From a bacterium (lineage in GTDB: Bacteria > UBA4055), in NCBI GenBank assembly GCA_029559475.1, contig JAKQBN010000061.1, forward strand, positions 6,020 to 70,019: a DNA stretch of 64,000 bases, written 5' to 3'. This document shows, one piece after another, positions 11,622 through 32,746 of the stretch. Under the pieces are notes generated by a model. It was given only the letters and a program-made list of their open reading frames with translations, was not told the origin of the DNA and did no database searches. The translations under genes and the position numbers were made by a program. Positions within the stretch are counted from its first letter, which is position 1; each line of letters opens with the position of its first letter.

Positions 11622-14600
11622 TTAATTAATTCTTTCGATCTTTAATATGCATTCGTGTCCGTTTATATCCAAAACCTCGCCCTGAACTTTATCACCGCAT
11701 TTTAATATTTCGACTGCCAGGGTTTCGGAGGATATATATTCTTTCTGCTTATCTATCGCTGAAGACAGTTCGTCATCGGCTGTATATTTTACTTTTATCC
11801 TATCTGCAATGTCGAAACCGCTGTCTTTTCTTAAGTTCTGGATACGGTTGATCAGCTCTCTCGCATGGCATTCGATCAGAAGTTCGGGAGTGACCGTAGT
11901 ATCTAATGATACCGTTATGTCTTTTTCAGAAACCGAGAATATTCCCGGTTTGGATTCATGCTGAACCGTCATATCCTCAAGGGTTATCGTTTCGCCTTCG
12001 ATCGTTATTCCGCTGCCTGTTTCAAGCTGTCTTATTTCCGCAAGGGTCAGCTGAGATATCGCGGCTGATATAACTTTCACTTTCTGTCCGTATTTTTTTC
12101 CGAGTACCCTAAAATTCGGTTTAGCTGTTATTTTTGCAAGCTCTTCCTCGTTCTCTATTACGATCACGTCTTTAATGTTCAGCTCTTCTTTTATCAGATC
12201 GCTGTATTCCGTTACCGCTTTCTGAGTAACTTCTTTATTGGCAACGACAGTGAAAGATGAAAGCGGCTGTCTTATCTTTATGTTCTTCTCGTTCCTGAGT
12301 ATCCTTCCGAGTTTTACGGCAGTCTCTACGAAAGACATCTTTTCTTCGAGCTCGAGATCGATGAATCTTTCGTCAACTTCAGGATAATCCCTTAAATGGA
12401 CTGAATCTGCAGACTTCGGAAATACGGACAGCTCAAGATTCTGGTAGAGTTCTTCCGCCACGAACGGCATGACCGGAGCGATCAGCTTTGTAAGTATTGA
12501 AAGCACTTCGTAAAGCGTTTCGTATGCGTGTTTTTTGTCCTGATCGTTCTCGCTTTTCCAGAATCTTCTTCTCGACCTTCTTATGTACCAGTTCGTGAGC
12601 TTATCTATGAAATCGACCATGGCCGGCAGCACATTATAAAGCTTGTATGCCGACATCTGATCATTAACTTCTTTGGTTAAACTCTGAAGGTAAGACATGA
12701 TCCATCTGTCGAGGTCGTTCGTCAGATCTTCGGGCTTGAAATATTCGGGTTGCGGTTGCCAGTTGTCTATTCTGGCGTATGTTACAAGAAAGCTGTAACT
12801 GTTCCATAAAGGCAGCATAACTTTTTTTATTACTTCCATTATCCCTGCTTCAGAAAATCTGAGATTTTCGGCTCTCACTGCGGGAGAATTTATAAGATAC
12901 ATTCTCATCGCGTCAGCACCGTACTTATCGAGAATTTCCGTTACCGGAGGATAATTTCTCTTCGATTTGCTCATCTTGCTTCCGTCTTCAGCCAGAACCG
13001 TGCCGTTTACGATCACGTTCTTGAAAGCGGGTTTGTTGAAAAGTGTCGTTGAAAGAACGTGAAGCTTGTTGAACCAGCCTCGTGTCTGATCTATTCCTTC
13101 CGCTATGAAATCGCACGGAAAATTTTCTTCGAACCTTTCCTTGTTCTCAAAAGGATAGTGATTCTGGGCATAGGGCATTGAGCCCGACTCGAACCAGCAG
13201 TCCAATACTTCGGGAGTGCGTTTCATTTCTCCGCCGCAGGAGCATTTAAAGGTCATTTTATCGACGAAATGTTTGTGGATATCGGTTATTTCGGAAAGTC
13301 CTGTTCTCTCCTTAAGCTCCTGAACCGATCCCACGCACTCGGTGTTTCCGCATTTTTCGCATACCCATATCGGCAGCGGAGAACCCCAGTATCTGTTTCT
13401 TGAAAGATGCCATTCTGGCATTTGTTCCAGAAGATTACCGAACCTTCCGTATTTAATGTTTTCAGGTATCCAGTTTATGCTCTCGTTATTCGCTATAAGA
13501 TCTGACTTTACCGGTTCAATTTCCATCACCCAGCTGTCGGTCGCTTTCTGTATAAGCGGAGTATCGCATCTCCAGCAGTGAGGATAACTGTGCTGCACGG
13601 TATCGTGCTTTATCAGCTTGCCGGCGGCTTTCAGATCCTTTATTATGTGCTTGTCCGCGGCCTTTATGTTCTGGCCTTCGTAATCGGGAACTTCAGAATT
13701 GAACCTGCCCATATCATCAACAGGATTCAGTACAGGTATATTATATTTCTTCCCGGCCTCAAAGTCCTCCTGTCCAAAAGCGGGCGCTTGATGAACTATA
13801 CCCGTTCCGTCCTCTGTTGAAACGTAATCAGCCTCGATCACTGTGTGTATGAACTCATTCATGTCTTTATAATAATCGAACAGCGGTACGTATTTTAAGC
13901 CTACTAGTTCAGAACCTTTCACGGTCTTTATTATCTCGAATTCGCCTTCTTTGAAGATATGATGTATCCTGTCAACAGCAAGTATAAGTGTCCTGTTGTT
14001 CGCTATGTCTTTTACATAAGCGTACTCTATGCTGTTCTTTACAGCGAGAGCCGCATTCGACGGAAGTGTCCACGGTGTTGTCGTCCATGCTGTCAGATAC
14101 AGATTCTCTTCGCCTTTGACCTTGAATATAACAGTAACGGACGGGTCCTGAACATCTTTGTAGCAGTCGGTTCCGGCCTCATGCTTGGACAGAGGCGTCG
14201 AACATCTCGTGCAGAAAGGATTTACCCTGTAGCCTCTTTTTATAAGCCCTTTGTCCCAGATGGATTTGAAAACCCACCATACGCTTTCCATATAGCCGAT
14301 GTCCATCGTCTTATAATCATTCTCAAAATCAACCCACCTGCCCGATCGCTCCACGATCTTTTCCCATTCGTCAACGTATTTCAGAACGATACCCCTGCAT
14401 GATTCGTTGAATTTATCTATTCCGAAAGCTTCAATGTCTTTTTTAGATTCGAACTTCAGTTCTTTTTCTACTTCGTATTCAACAGGAAGACCGTGACAGT
14501 CCCAGCCGAACCTTCTCGAAACATATTTTCCCTTCATCGTCCAGTATCTCGGGATAACATCCTTTAAAGTCCCGCCGACTAAGTGACCGTAATGCGGCAG

Positions 14601-14759
14601 TCCTGTCGCGAAAGGGGGGCCGTCGTAAAAAACGTATTCCTTTTTACCCTTTCTCTGATCGAGCGATTTTTTAAACGTATCGTTATCCTTCCAGAACCTT
14701 AATACTTTTGCTTCAAGTCCGGGAAAATTCACCTTTGCATCAACTTCTTTAAACATCAT
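11622..14759 (-). CDS. ileS: Isoleucyl-tRNA synthetase, eukaryote-like (IleS2-type)
   Basis: A 1,045-residue class I synthetase. The HIGH box reads GLPHYGHLVGGTLKD, followed by RRFGWDCHGLPVEYEVEKEL; the KMSKS box is DGSKMSKSKRNYPP. This HYGH form, the RRFGWDCHGLPVE block and the length match the IleS2 subgroup (which contains mupirocin-tolerant enzymes) rather than E. coli IleS. Cysteine pairs VCEKCGNTEC and CSCGG suggest a zinc site in the insertion. ATG 14759 and ATG 14756 are adjacent; AGAGG is better spaced for 14756. It is six bases downstream of the exported protein gene. Confidence 0.95.
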   Translation of the reverse strand: MMFKEVDAKVNFPGLEAKVLRFWKDNDTFKKSLDQRKGKKEYVFYDGPPFATGLPHYGHLVGGTLKDVIPRYWTMKGKYVSRRFGWDCHGLPVEYEVEKELKFESKKDIEAFGIDKFNESCRGIVLKYVDEWEKIVERSGRWVDFENDYKTMDIGYMESVWWVFKSIWDKGLIKRGYRVNPFCTRCSTPLSKHEAGTDCYKDVQDPSVTVIFKVKGEENLYLTAWTTTPWTLPSNAALAVKNSIEYAYVKDIANNRTLILAVDRIHHIFKEGEFEIIKTVKGSELVGLKYVPLFDYYKDMNEFIHTVIEADYVSTEDGTGIVHQAPAFGQEDFEAGKKYNIPVLNPVDDMGRFNSEVPDYEGQNIKAADKHIIKDLKAAGKLIKHDTVQHSYPHCWRCDTPLIQKATDSWVMEIEPVKSDLIANNESINWIPENIKYGRFGNLLEQMPEWHLSRNRYWGSPLPIWVCEKCGNTECVGSVQELKERTGLSEITDIHKHFVDKMTFKCSCGGEMKRTPEVLDCWFESGSMPYAQNHYPFENKERFEENFPCDFIAEGIDQTRGWFNKLHVLSTTLFNKPAFKNVIVNGTVLAEDGSKMSKSKRNYPPVTEILDKYGADAMRMYLINSPAVRAENLRFSEAGIMEVIKKVMLPLWNSYSFLVTYARIDNWQPQPEYFKPEDLTNDLDRWIMSYLQSLTKEVNDQMSAYKLYNVLPAMVDFIDKLTNWYIRRSRRRFWKSENDQDKKHAYETLYEVLSILTKLIAPVMPFVAEELYQNLELSVFPKSADSVHLRDYPEVDERFIDLELEEKMSFVETAVKLGRILRNEKNIKIRQPLSSFTVVANKEVTQKAVTEYSDLIKEELNIKDVIVIENEEELAKITAKPNFRVLGKKYGQKVKVISAAISQLTLAEIRQLETGSGITIEGETITLEDMTVQHESKPGIFSVSEKDITVSLDTTVTPELLIECHARELINRIQNLRKDSGFDIADRIKVKYTADDELSSAIDKQKEYISSETLAVEILKCGDKVQGEVLDINGHECILKIERIN

Positions 14760-14765
14760 TTTCCT

Positions 14766-15428
14766 CTACTGCTTCATTTCCGTATAGCCTTCCGGCCTCT
14801 TAGTGTATTTTTCATCTATTTTATCAATTATCTTCATGGCTGTGATCTCTTTTTCAGATACGACAGTACCGCCTATCCTGGCCACTTCTCTGACCACGAT
14901 GCCGCCCGTAGCCTTGATCTTGTCCATCATGTTCTTAATGTTCTTCGAATCCTTCTGCATCTTTTCCTGCTGCCTGATCATCAGGTCCGCCGGGAATCCT
15001 GTATCTTTCGCGACATACATATCGAGATCCATCGCCATATCCATAACTTTCGCGTTCCCGAGATACTTTTCCGTATTCCACGGTCCTATCTTCTTTTTTT
15101 CGCCTGTCGTTTTCATTTCGAAATCTTTAAGCTGGGAGTCTGTCGAATACATAATATCAGTAAGCTCTTTGAACGTCTTTTTGTAGAAAGTCTTATTCGT
15201 AGTATTGTAGAATTCATAAGCTTTATCGTCGATGTAAGTAATGCTGAATTCATCTGCGATAATTATCAGATCGTCAGATATAAAAGTCTCCTGCGTCAGC
15301 GTATCCATTCTTCCGTCAGCCTGAGCCGAAGCGATAAGGATCTGCTTAACGTAATAGTTTTTTGAAAATGCCGGAAACACCGTGATCAAAACGGCTGCGA
15401 GTAATAAATATTTTTTCAGGTTTTTCAC
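14766..15428 (-). CDS. Exported protein of unknown function (DUF4412-like architecture)
   Basis: A 220-residue protein with a clear signal peptide (MKNLKKYLLLAAVLITVFPAFS). The rest is rich in beta-type segments around FSITYIDDKAYEFYNTTNKT and in a Met/Lys-rich helix (IRQQEKMQKDSKNIKNMMDKIK). The pattern of a stored substrate-sensing beta sheet resembles DUF4412/LolA-like periplasmic proteins, but I cannot assign it firmly. Start is GTG at 15428 with AAAGGAGG four bases upstream. It heads the operon with ileS, dksA-like and lspA. Confidence 0.7.
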   Translation of the reverse strand: MKNLKKYLLLAAVLITVFPAFSKNYYVKQILIASAQADGRMDTLTQETFISDDLIIIADEFSITYIDDKAYEFYNTTNKTFYKKTFKELTDIMYSTDSQLKDFEMKTTGEKKKIGPWNTEKYLGNAKVMDMAMDLDMYVAKDTGFPADLMIRQQEKMQKDSKNIKNMMDKIKATGGIVVREVARIGGTVVSEKEITAMKIIDKIDEKYTKRPEGYTEMKQ

Positions 15429-15477
15429 CAGTCCTCCTTTACCTAATTAACAGCTACGCTGTAAAATAAAGTCAGAG

Positions 15478-16883: not shown

Positions 16884-18272
16884 TTACAGTTTATTGAACC
16901 AGCTTTTTTTATCCTTTCTGACTTCAGATGAAGCGTAAACTTTATAATCGGTAAAAATGGTTGTCTGTCCGTCATAGACTGTTATGACCGAAGTGTTGTA
17001 TGAAAGTTTGTCCTTGTTCGCGCCTGTGATTAGCTCGACTGATCTTTTCTTGTTCGGTTCGGTCAGCCCTTCAGCGATAAATGCTTTTAATTTTTCCGTG
17101 CAGACGCCGATGTCGCCCGTTATCTCTATTACTGATTCGGTATCGTTTTTGGATATCTCGCCGTTGCTGAACATGAAATCAGTCCCGGTCAGCCTTATAA
17201 TTTTAATTTTTTCTTTGTTCTGAAAAACTGCTTTGATAAGTTCGCTGACATTTAATGTCCTGTTGACAGGAATTGATTCTCCTTTATCGTTCTTTTCATA
17301 GAAAACCGCGTCGAGTGAGAAGTCCGCAGCCTCTATTCTAGCGCTTCCGCAGTCAAACTCAGGTTCTTCCTGTTTGATAGGTTTAACCGGCTCAGAGATT
17401 TTTTCTTTCTTAACTTCAGAATTTATTTTTTGATCAGCCTTCTTTTCAGACTTTATAACCTCTGCAATGATCTCTTTTTTCTCTTCGCTCTTAACTATAA
17501 TTTCAGGTTTCTTTTCAGGTTCTTTTTTTACAGTCTCCTGCTTAACTGTTTCCTGTTTCTTTTCTTCTTTTACTAACGGCTCAGTTTTTATTTCGGCTGT
17601 AACAGGTACCACCGTGACAGGAGGATAATTTTCAAGAGTGAAAAACCAGCTTTTTGGATCTCTGAACGGATCGCTGCCTATGTAGAAACGGTAATCAGGA
17701 TATAATGAAAAATGATCGTCGAAAAAAGTCAGTTTGGATGAAAAATAAGCGTCGTTGTCGTGGCTTTTCCCCCATATCCATTCGAGAGAGCTTTTCTGAT
17801 TTGAAGTTAGGGCTGTATTCTCGATCAGCTCCCTGATCTTATCCTTTGATCTGTACGCAGGTTCTTTTTCCAAGTCTTTGAACGAATTGTCGGCCAGTGA
17901 TATTTTTTTCCCGTTTCCGTTGTCTATATCGAGCTTGTTTATCCTTAATATCTTCGCATTTGCTATCACATTCGATAAAGAATCAAGTATTTCCGAGATC
18001 GTCATGTCCGTTCTGTAATCAAACTCATACTTAAATTTATTTCTTTTATAGACATCAACTCCGAACGGCCGGAATATCTTTTTAGATGATGATAATTTTT
18101 CAAGCAGAGATCTAAGTTCATCCCCTGCATAACGCGATCTGACAGAATCAAGCACGGAGCTTATCTTTAGCGAATCTGATGTTATTTCGTTGCTTTTCTT
18201 TAAATAATCGCCGTCCGACGCAAAAAGCCCGGCCAGCAAAAATAATATTATAGAAACAAGCGCTTTATTCAT
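16884..18272 (-). CDS. Exported protein with charged linker, function unknown
   Basis: A 462-residue protein. Residues 1-18 form a signal peptide (MNKALVSIILFLLAGLFA). The N-terminal half has no recognised domain (RSRYAGDELRSLLEKLSSS ... LRINKLDID). Residues about 205-285 are a low-complexity Lys/Glu/Pro linker resembling repeats of EKKxE. The C-terminal part (FDCGSARIEAADFSLDAVFYE ... ITVYDGQTTIFTDYK) looks like a beta domain. It may span the periplasm, but that is only an inference from the linker. I do not recognise the family. Confidence 0.65.
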   Translation of the reverse strand: MNKALVSIILFLLAGLFASDGDYLKKSNEITSDSLKISSVLDSVRSRYAGDELRSLLEKLSSSKKIFRPFGVDVYKRNKFKYEFDYRTDMTISEILDSLSNVIANAKILRINKLDIDNGNGKKISLADNSFKDLEKEPAYRSKDKIRELIENTALTSNQKSSLEWIWGKSHDNDAYFSSKLTFFDDHFSLYPDYRFYIGSDPFRDPKSWFFTLENYPPVTVVPVTAEIKTEPLVKEEKKQETVKQETVKKEPEKKPEIIVKSEEKKEIIAEVIKSEKKADQKINSEVKKEKISEPVKPIKQEEPEFDCGSARIEAADFSLDAVFYEKNDKGESIPVNRTLNVSELIKAVFQNKEKIKIIRLTGTDFMFSNGEISKNDTESVIEITGDIGVCTEKLKAFIAEGLTEPNKKRSVELITGANKDKLSYNTSVITVYDGQTTIFTDYKVYASSEVRKDKKSWFNKL

Positions 18273-18331: not shown

Positions 18332-18354
18332 AAAAAAAGCGGGATAGACCCGCT
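18332..18354 (-). terminator. Terminator after the HesB-like selenoprotein gene
   Basis: Minus strand: AGCGGG (18354-18349), loop TCTAT, CCCGCT (18343-18338), then T7. Its placement right after the 18359 stop supports the long, read-through reading of the selenoprotein gene. Confidence 0.85.
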
Positions 18355-18358
18355 AATT

Positions 18359-18667
18359 TTATGAGCACTCGTTCACATCTTTCAGCTTGAGTGAAAAGCC
18401 CGATCCATAAAACCTTTTTTCGTTATAATCGAGAGTAGCACCGCCGTATCTTTTTAAAAACTCCACGCTTCTCGGATCTACCAAAAATTCGATTTCTGAA
18501 ATCTTAAGCACGTTATCTTCCGCGCCTTTGTTATCCAAAGCTATACCTAGCCTCGGTCCGCCTCATCCGATACCGTCAAAATAAACTCTTACGAACTGGT
18601 TTTTATTTTCCGGTTTCTCCAGAACTTCTTTCACTTTTACCGCCGCAGTATCTGTTACTATAAGCAT
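18359..18667 (-). CDS. HesB/IscA-like selenoprotein (in-frame UGA = Sec35)
   Basis: ATG at 18667 with GAGG five bases upstream. Codon 35 is TGA (18565-18563) inside VYFDGIG-U-GGPRLGIALDN, exactly where HesB/IscA-like proteins carry the conserved Cys of GCGGPxLG. Conserved sequence continues after it (ISEIEFLVDPRSVEFLKRYGGATLDY) to a TAA at 18359, 102 residues. Downstream of UGA the message can fold CTTTG-GATAA-CAAAG; the loop starts 27 bases after UGA with a G, as the bacterial SECIS model asks. HesB-like selenoproteins are a known anaerobe family. Likely a thiol or Fe-S related redox protein; sequencing error or pseudogene is less likely. No sel genes lie in this window. Confidence 0.88.
18523..18540 (-). 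promoter_or_regulatory. Candidate bacterial SECIS hairpin
   Basis: CTTTG-GATAA-CAAAG, a 5-bp stem with a five-base loop beginning with G, 24-27 bases 3' of the UGA codon on the minus strand; a bulged G and an outer GC pair may extend it. Distance and loop G fit the published bacterial SECIS pattern. Position range is approximate to a few bases. Confidence 0.65.
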
Positions 18668-18736
18668 TTCCACCTCAGGGATTTTTTAATTTTACTAAAT
18701 ATAGTATCTTCTATATATCATAGTTGATGATTTTAA

Positions 18737-20011
18737 TCAGATTTTTTCAAATATTTCAACGGGATTTTCTACTAGAAGCACTTTGTATCCTGTTTTTTCG
18801 CTCAGATCATCGGGAGTGATATCGTCTAAGAACTTTCCGTCGTAATTCAATATTGTTGAAGGGATGAGAAGCAGATCATCTCCGGATTTTGCTTTCCCCA
18901 CAGATTTTATAATATCTTTCCCTCCCAAAAGCCCCGCTACAGTAACGCTACGACCGAAAAGCATATTCTCAGCTTTGATAAGTCTGACACTCAGATTTTT
19001 TACTTTTTTTAATTCAGGCATAACTATTCTATTCATTATTTCATAAAACAGCTCTCCTGTTACGATCGTAACAGATGCCTTTTTATTGATCTTCTCAGGG
19101 ATCGCATCGACCGATTCAAGAAATCTTTCTATAAAATTCCTTGCCGGTCCCACTCCGTCCTCGTACTGAAGATAATCCTCGTAAAACTCCTCTTCAGGAA
19201 GTTCAATTCCTGATGTTATAAAAAATTCATCCGCCGGGAACACGAAGCCGGTACCGGTTTCTTTTTTATACTTCTTATTAAGTTTGAAGATAAGCTTTAC
19301 CGTTTCTGCTGCTATCTCCTTTGTTACAGGCTCTATTTTTGGAAGGTTCTTTCTAAAAGACGTGAGGCCTACCGGAACAACGGCCACCGATCTGACCATC
19401 GGATAAAACCCGCGCATTACCCGAATTGTATCTTCAAGTATCTTTCCGTCATTATATCCGGGACACATAACGATCTGGGTATGAAGTTCTATACCGTTAT
19501 CCGTCAGATACTTCATTTTTTCTAAAAGTTTATCGTCTTTCTTTATGCCGAGAAGTTTTTTTCTGACGTCGTCGTTCACTGAATGTACCGAAATATATAA
19601 AGGACTCAGCTTCATTTTAACAATTCTGTCGAGCTCTTTCGGCGTAATAGTTGTCAGCGTGAAATAATTACCGTAAAGGAATGAGAATCTATAGTCCTCA
19701 TCTTTAACATAAATTGTTTTGCGCATTCCTTTCGGGTTCTGACTTATGAAACAGAAAATGCAGTTGTTACCACAATGCCTGATCTTTAGATCTTCTACTT
19801 CTATACCGTTGTTGCCGGCGGTTTCGAAAGCTGCTTTATAAGCCCCCGCCTTTCCCTCAACAACAAATGACAGTGGTTCGTCCGCACAGTAATAATTAAA
19901 ATCAATGGCGTCTTCGATCTGTTTGCCGTTAACAGATATCAGGCTGTCGCCTTTTCTGATACCCGCCTTATAGGAAGGCGAGTTTTTTTCGACCGATACG
20001 ATTTTTACCAT
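18737..20011 (-). CDS. PDZ-radical SAM protein (DUF512 family)
   Basis: A 424-residue protein. Residues about 1-65 form a PDZ-like domain (SPSYKAGIRKGDSLISVNGKQI). The radical SAM cysteines are Cys80, Cys84 and Cys87 (CGNNCIFCF), with a family-type spacing of CxxxCxxC. The C-terminal DUF512 segment includes VVPVGLTSFRKNLPKIEP and the NFIERFLES region. Reaction unknown; these are conserved in anaerobes and clostridia. It starts two codons after purL ends, so the two may share a message, and lies 70 bases upstream of the HesB-like selenoprotein. Confidence 0.87.
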   Translation of the reverse strand: MVKIVSVEKNSPSYKAGIRKGDSLISVNGKQIEDAIDFNYYCADEPLSFVVEGKAGAYKAAFETAGNNGIEVEDLKIRHCGNNCIFCFISQNPKGMRKTIYVKDEDYRFSFLYGNYFTLTTITPKELDRIVKMKLSPLYISVHSVNDDVRKKLLGIKKDDKLLEKMKYLTDNGIELHTQIVMCPGYNDGKILEDTIRVMRGFYPMVRSVAVVPVGLTSFRKNLPKIEPVTKEIAAETVKLIFKLNKKYKKETGTGFVFPADEFFITSGIELPEEEFYEDYLQYEDGVGPARNFIERFLESVDAIPEKINKKASVTIVTGELFYEIMNRIVMPELKKVKNLSVRLIKAENMLFGRSVTVAGLLGGKDIIKSVGKAKSGDDLLLIPSTILNYDGKFLDDITPDDLSEKTGYKVLLVENPVEIFEKI

Positions 20012-31707: not shown

Positions 31708-31923
31708 ATGAAAAACAACCATAAAATCAGCTTCATAAAGCCTGTACCTTATGCAGTGCCTGACTTAAGATTCTGCAATATATATTGCTTTAAAGAAATT
31801 ATCATGCCTGATGACCGGATTGGCAATATCGGTGATTCATGGACATATTGTGTAATCGATTCGCAGGAAATATTTTATAATCCTTTATGTAAATCAAACG
31901 GAGACTATAGCTATGAATGCTGA
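31708..31923 (+). CDS. Short protein, function unknown
   Basis: 71 residues, no recognised motif; a Cys-containing core FCNIYCFKEIIMPDDRIGNIGDSW. RBS CGGAG. Its end overlaps the start of the membrane protein (31913) by 11 bases, which supports it as a translated gene. Partner or small effector function is possible but not shown. Confidence 0.5.
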   Translation: MKNNHKISFIKPVPYAVPDLRFCNIYCFKEIIMPDDRIGNIGDSWTYCVIDSQEIFYNPLCKSNGDYSYEC

Positions 31924-32329
31924 AAAAGAAATTACAGATAAGATTTTTTTTAAAAATCCCAGAACCGGAGAAACTCAGACTGTAGGCAGTAACTTAAACA
32001 TCATATTTGGAGTGTTTTCCGTAATGTGCGGAATACCATTATTTATCAGAAGGCTTAACTCATGGGGATATGTTATGCTAGCTTTACAAAGCGTGTATAT
32101 GCTCCTATACCCTCAGTTCAGAGAAGGCGATTATTGCTCGATCTTTTTTTTACTTTTCGTTGAAATCATAATCAGCTTATATTTAGGCATCAAAGGTAAC
32201 AGGCTCCTTACGATCTATTACTTTGAGAACGGGTGGATTATGGAAAATCCTCATAATGAAATGGTCCGGAACACATTCAAAAAATGGAAACTTGAACCTG
32301 AAGTAATCCCTCGCAAGGGAGTCAAATGA
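31913..32329 (+). CDS. Small multi-pass membrane protein
   Basis: 138 residues with three hydrophobic segments: LNIIFGVFSVMCGIPLFI, WGYVMLALQSVYMLLYP and CSIFFLLFVEIIISLYLGI. Cytoplasmic basic flanks. The start lies inside the previous ORF. The next ATG (32326) overlaps its stop, so it was translated together with the Nudix gene now decayed. Function unknown. Confidence 0.6.
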   Translation: MNAEKEITDKIFFKNPRTGETQTVGSNLNIIFGVFSVMCGIPLFIRRLNSWGYVMLALQSVYMLLYPQFREGDYCSIFFLLFVEIIISLYLGIKGNRLLTIYYFENGWIMENPHNEMVRNTFKKWKLEPEVIPRKGVK

Positions 32330-32746
32330 AAAACAGAAAAGAACAAATTTCTATGCTACAAATGTAATGGCAACGAAACAAGGCTACACAACCTGCGATC
32401 TGTCGGTATCGGAGGTCATACCGACAGGCAGGACTGTGTGAATTGCGATAATTACACAACTATTCTCAACTGCGCAGAGCGCGAATTATTCGAAGAGATC
32501 TCACTCAGAATCGATAAGAACAGACTCAAATTCATCGGGATCATCAACGACGATAAAACCGAAGTAGGCTCAGTACACTTCGGAGCCGTTTTCTTATACA
32601 AACTCGATGATATTGAAAAAATAAAAAACACTACCGAAATCGAATCATACCAATGGCTGAGCATGAAAGAGATTGACGGTACAGATAATCTTGAAGAATG
32701 GAGCAGAATAGCTATGATCCTGTATAAAGATTTTTTCCTAAAATGA
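32326..32746 (+). pseudogene. Decayed Nudix hydrolase gene
   Basis: ATG 32326 (AAGGGAG before it, ATGA overlap with the membrane protein) gives MKNRKEQI, then a wrong-frame stop. The other frame, from about 32339, reads FLCYKCNGNETRLHNLRSVGIGGHTDRQD and AERELFEEISLR, which is a Nudix box, and continues to 32746 without stops. Relatives have about 60 residues between the two pieces, so an internal deletion with frameshift is the best reading. A shortened protein from GTG 32438 is open but lacks the fold's first half. Substrate cannot be stated. Confidence 0.68.

Follow-up and report, generated by a model that had tools for sequence, protein, structure and literature searches.

The window analyzed here, a 64,000-nucleotide stretch of contig JAKQBN010000061.1 from a bacterium of the UBA4055 lineage, almost certainly harbors the gene of a HesB-like selenoprotein in which an in-frame UGA at codon 35 is read as selenocysteine (Sec). 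The computed basis of this assignment comprises the full Sec machinery, other UGA-containing genes, the conservation of the UGA, selection on the sequence that follows it, and the predicted fold of the product; the actual insertion of Sec and the function of the hairpin behind the UGA are what we infer. In the mechanism we propose, SelB would bind the charged Sec-tRNA-Sec(UCA) together with the hairpin located just 3' of the UGA, and at codon 35 the ribosome would incorporate selenocysteine rather than terminate. The resulting product would fold as an A-type Fe-S protein (IscA/ErpA) in which Sec takes the place of the first Cys ligand of the cluster and the C-terminus has one Cys in place of CxC. 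The selenoprotein family has been known for two decades, and what is new here is another member from an uncultured bacterial lineage, which extends the range of lineages known to have HesB-like selenoproteins.

Table 1. Coordinates of the selenoprotein gene, its surroundings and associated genes (window positions, unless a contig of the host genome, G000, is given)
Feature	Location	Strand	Remarks
HesB-like selenoprotein gene	18359..18667	minus	102 codons + TAA, Sec at codon 35; translation, profile matches, IscA fold
In-frame UGA, Sec codon 35	18563..18565	minus	aligns with the first, conserved Cys of IscA/ErpA
SECIS-like hairpin CCGAGGCUA-GGUA-UAGCUUUGG	18535..18556	minus	folding; starts 6 nt after the UGA
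Shine-Dalgarno-like GAGGTGG	18670..18676	minus	read from the sequence, a few nt 5' of the ATG
Intrinsic terminator	18338..18354	minus	6-bp stem AGCGGG-TCTAT-CCCGCT followed by a T run, directly 3' of the stop codon
Upstream neighbor, PDZ / radical-SAM-like / DUF512 protein	18737..20011	minus	Pfam; adjoins the gene in 8 genomes
Downstream neighbor, no Pfam match	16884..18272	minus	conserved next to the gene in 8 genomes
tRNA-Sec	L001:1501-1596 = G000:C52:28910-29005	minus	Infernal
Two formate dehydrogenase alpha (FdhA) genes	G000:C17:7000-9009 and 13456-15462		one in-frame UGA each

Translation from position 18667 down to 18359 yielded a product of 102 residues containing exactly one TGA, at codon 35 within DGIG-U-GGPRLGIALD, followed at the end by TAA (MLIVTDTAAVKVKEVLEKPENKNQFVRVYFDGIG-U-GGPRLGIALDNKG...GSGFSLKLKDVNECS, then TAA); the C-terminus reads DVNECS, with a single Cys. 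The preliminary description had reported this single UGA within GIG-U-GGPRLGIALD and left the strand unstated; the translation bears the observation out and places it on the minus strand, the plus-strand reading of 18359..18667 being ruled out by stops, with no gene there. The family-like sequence that it had noticed around the UGA corresponds to HesB/IscA similarity on both sides, and the good ribosome-binding site and the terminator right after the final stop were likewise located. Two terminator-like sites were found against 0.2 in shuffled sequences, and both represent one palindrome read on both strands. The suggestion of a selenoprotein gene missed by ORF callers also holds, as this is a real gene with an internal in-frame UGA. 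Its surroundings, consisting of the end of purL, the DUF512 radical-SAM/PDZ protein, the selenoprotein gene and the conserved unknown ORF, retained the same order in 8 of 10 genomes.

The family set included 13 genomes, ten of which carry the gene, and these ten are separate species-level genomes. The UGA at codon 35 was present in all ten, the nine relatives sharing 43–79% protein identity with the window protein, and no family genome was found with a Cys codon at this position, except in a separate tandem paralog in G006. Downstream of the UGA, dN/dS ranged from 0.04 to 0.16, with third positions accounting for most of the differences. At the local base composition, 67 codons would stay open behind a stop with a chance probability of about 0.014, so an open frame of this length proves little by itself; chance is excluded because the UGA, the frame and the protein are kept in ten family genomes, with purifying selection after the UGA. 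The preliminary description had proposed looking for a conserved UGA in relatives and had named a different codon with frame decay in close relatives as evidence to the contrary; it is the conserved UGA that was observed, with purifying selection behind it. In 3 of the 13 family genomes no HesB-like copy was detectable though sel genes were present, which reflects either incomplete assembly or loss.

The host genome (2.28 Mb, 92% complete) yielded matches to selB (365 bits, cut-off 242), selA (532 bits) and selD (344 bits; G000:C53:11123-12043), the last itself with one in-frame UGA, together with a tRNA-Sec (UCA) scoring 54.8 bits against a gathering score of 47 and bearing the anticodon loop CUUCAAA, which was found by Infernal and not reported by ARAGORN. 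A search for selA, selB, selC and selD had been suggested at the outset, the absence of all of them being held to speak against a selenoprotein; all four are in the genome, and the earlier deduction that the host decodes UGA as Sec is upheld by the full sel set and by other UGA genes of known selenoprotein families. TGA also serves as the stop of 8 of the 46 long ORFs in the window. All this marks a standard Sec-decoding genome, in which translation of UGA as Trp or Cys is unlikely.

Some further features of these genes are recorded here as observations in their own right. Two selA matches (G000:C40:28-1383 and G000:C67:4-1149) both lie at contig starts, one of them partial, and represent either a genuine duplication or an artefact of assembly. 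The acceptor stem of the host tRNA-Sec is mismatched (GGGCUUGG vs ACUCGCCC, with U5xC and U6xU), as it is in G011, while the stem of G004 (GGGCUAGG/ACUAGCCC) has normal pairs at those positions; the loosening is lineage-specific. FlpD/MvhD genes (PF02662) with an in-frame UGA occur in G003, G007, G010, G011 and G012, with up to three per genome, and were absent from the genus of the window, the selenoproteome differing strongly within the family.

Folding of the sequence after the UGA, another check advised in the preliminary description, recovered a SECIS-like hairpin with a z-score of -3.1, only 1 of 200 shuffled sequences being as stable. The hairpin with a G-first loop announced there is present, with the loop GGUA, but this loop starts 15 nt after the UGA (at the 16th nucleotide) and not 27. 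According to the bSECIS model (PMC13188914), a G is expected in the first two loop positions, with an upper stem of 4–16 bp, a loop of 3–9 nt, a spacing of 16–37 nt and a minimum free energy no higher than -7.5 kcal/mol. The window hairpin agrees with this model in its stem, loop, G and energy, whereas its spacing of 15 nt is borderline, at or just under the lower end of that range. The family selD genes carry a comparable G-first hairpin (AAGUCC-GGA-GGACUU in several of them) about 17 nt after their UGA.

Conservation of the hairpin was followed across the family. Both AGGCUAGGUNUAGC and the segment AGGCUA-GGUN-UAGC are kept in 8 of the 10 genomes, and retention of this segment requires that Leu codon 40 be CTA, which it is in the same proportion of genomes (8/10) even though CTA makes up only 3–13% of the Leu codons in the ten. 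Where Leu takes the place of Ile at residue 42, ATA gives way to CTA or TTA, and the paired UA is preserved throughout. These codon choices point to a constraint at the RNA level, although the genomes are related and not independent. The covariation test on the family genomes gave no compensatory changes at any hairpin pair. In G005 and G011, several of the pairs are broken, and by our own reading a different stem, GGGC-GUC-GCCC, would be needed.

In profile comparisons, the window protein matched IscA_HesB_Se (NF038090) with 52.3 bits (E 5e-14; curated cut-off 85) and HesB_rel_seleno (TIGR01911) with 51.9 bits (E 9e-14; curated cut-off 66.35), neither cut-off being reached, and the PF01521 match, at 24.1 bits, was also below its curated cut-off. 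A curated cut-off is an annotation threshold and not a biological feature; that of TIGR01911 was reached in none of 386 sampled genomes, though several hold UxGP/Sec copies, and the family model is therefore narrow. The product carries the motif UGGP, in agreement with the UxGP tabulated for the HesB-like family (PMC13188914), and a Desulfobacteraceae MAG, distantly related, also yielded a copy with UGGP. When 28 proteins were placed in a tree, a branch supported at 99/100 separated all IscA-type rows from all HesB-like rows, the window protein included; the resolution of the tree does not extend to the branching order on the HesB-like side, where branches are long, or to the number of Sec origins. 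The AlphaFold model adopts the IscA fold with a mean pLDDT of 90, and its best Foldseek matches in the PDB were HI1723 and the IscA of E. coli; SufA was another of the matches at E below 0.001. The gene belongs to the HesB-like (UxGP) selenoproteins (TIGR01911/NF038090) despite its sub-cut-off scores. That HesB-like proteins form an established selenoprotein family in anaerobes, as stated from the start, accords with the table of such selenoproteins in anaerobes published in 2006 (PMC1794560). Since the score of 52 bits lies below both family cut-offs, annotation relying on TIGR01911 or NF038090 would likely miss the gene, and more generally curated models miss such members through a sub-cut-off score and an internal stop.

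Compared with the HesB-like family, the window protein shows the same UxGP, its Sec occupying the place of the first HesB-domain Cys, the same C-terminal Cys without CGCG, and the same setting, a Sec-decoding genome that also holds SelD and FdhA selenoproteins. With IscA/ErpA (E. coli IscA, 1r94/1s98; H. influenzae HI1723, 2apn), its predicted model shares the fold (Foldseek E 3e-6 to 2e-5), the first ligand position and, in the structural alignment to HI1723, 35% identity. The alignment of Sec with the first Cys of IscA/ErpA agrees with the earlier statement that Sec replaces the Cys of the same motif. In contrast to IscA/ErpA, the window protein has Sec and not Cys, continues with GGPR where those proteins have SGFQ or SGMS, is three residues longer (KRYGGA) before the TLDY strand, and has one Cys only, without the C-terminal CxC. 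The C-terminal CxC belongs to the cluster-ligand set of IscA; with this motif missing, cluster binding exactly as in IscA would probably not be possible, judging from that ligand set. The initial label of a HesB/IscA-like protein holds, with the correction that the C-terminal CxC of a true IscA is missing. The pair formed by Sec35 and Cys101 may have a redox role or one in metal or Fe-S handling. Among the named selenoproteins of this family, and compared here by family assignment, is the archaeal MMJJ_08070 of M. maripaludis, where the HesB-like selenoprotein was identified by 75Se labelling and mutagenesis and a disruption mutant retained nitrogen fixation (PMC11097638).

Against these findings, other readings of the UGA have to be weighed. 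That it is a real stop, either in a pseudogene or through a sequencing error in a gene with Cys (TGT/TGC), would suit a short gene that is interrupted just once in frame and comes from a draft genome, as well as profile scores under the curated cut-offs. Yet the identical UGA recurs in ten separate species-level genomes, purifying selection acts 3' of it, start, ribosome-binding site and terminator are all in place, and the family lacks a Cys codon at this position apart from the G006 paralog, which leaves such a reading a negligible likelihood. Decoding of the UGA as Cys by a selC*-like tRNA-Cys, or as Trp under code 4, is very improbable. The selC*-tRNA-Cys does resemble tRNA-Sec (PMC7609411), and the UGA is located at a Cys position; however, the selA/selB/selD set is complete, the tRNA, by our own reading, retains G73 and has a T stem of 5 bp that lacks the characteristic bulge of selC*, TGA terminates long ORFs in the window, and each UGA gene recovered from the own genome by the family search (HesB-like, SelD, FdhA) falls into a known selenoprotein family.

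The remaining question concerns the kind of protein into which Sec would be inserted. A true A-type Fe-S carrier (IscA/ErpA/SufA), as opposed to a HesB-like member with another role, is unlikely but carries some weight, considering that the ErpA model PRK13623 scores almost as high as the best HesB-like model (51.2 vs 52.3 bits), that no other A-type (IscA/ErpA) protein was found in the 92%-complete genome, and that the predicted fold is that of IscA. The absence of the C-terminal CxC cluster ligands, the UxGP motif of HesB-like type and the 99/100 branch that parts all IscA rows from the window protein argue for HesB-like membership. We consider it a shade more doubtful that the selenoprotein is the only A-type protein of its lineage, with Sec35 and the single C-terminal Cys performing all delivery of Fe-S or other metals, a reading drawn solely from the lack of any further A-type hit in the 92%-complete genome; were this so, a selenolate-ligated carrier would replace the three-Cys kind.

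Elsewhere in the window, the best-looking other candidate for read-through, at 31913-32740 on the plus strand, was rejected. Here, a membrane-protein-like ORF ends in TGA with a NUDIX domain in frame behind it, and as the two parts are separate in relatives, this UGA was taken as a true stop. The NUDIX part has no ATG, GTG or TTG before its motif, a GTG occurring only at 32438; judging from the relatives, this is probably a broken or unusual start and not a selenoprotein.

The ten family genomes with the shared UGA constitute a small comparative set for the function of the HesB-like family. In G006, tandem HesB-like genes (L024; G006:C70:26274-26933) carry one Cys and one Sec at the same position, and a similar Cys/Sec pair of HesB-like genes (L026) is present in G037, both pairs being useful for studying the division of labor between Cys and Sec.
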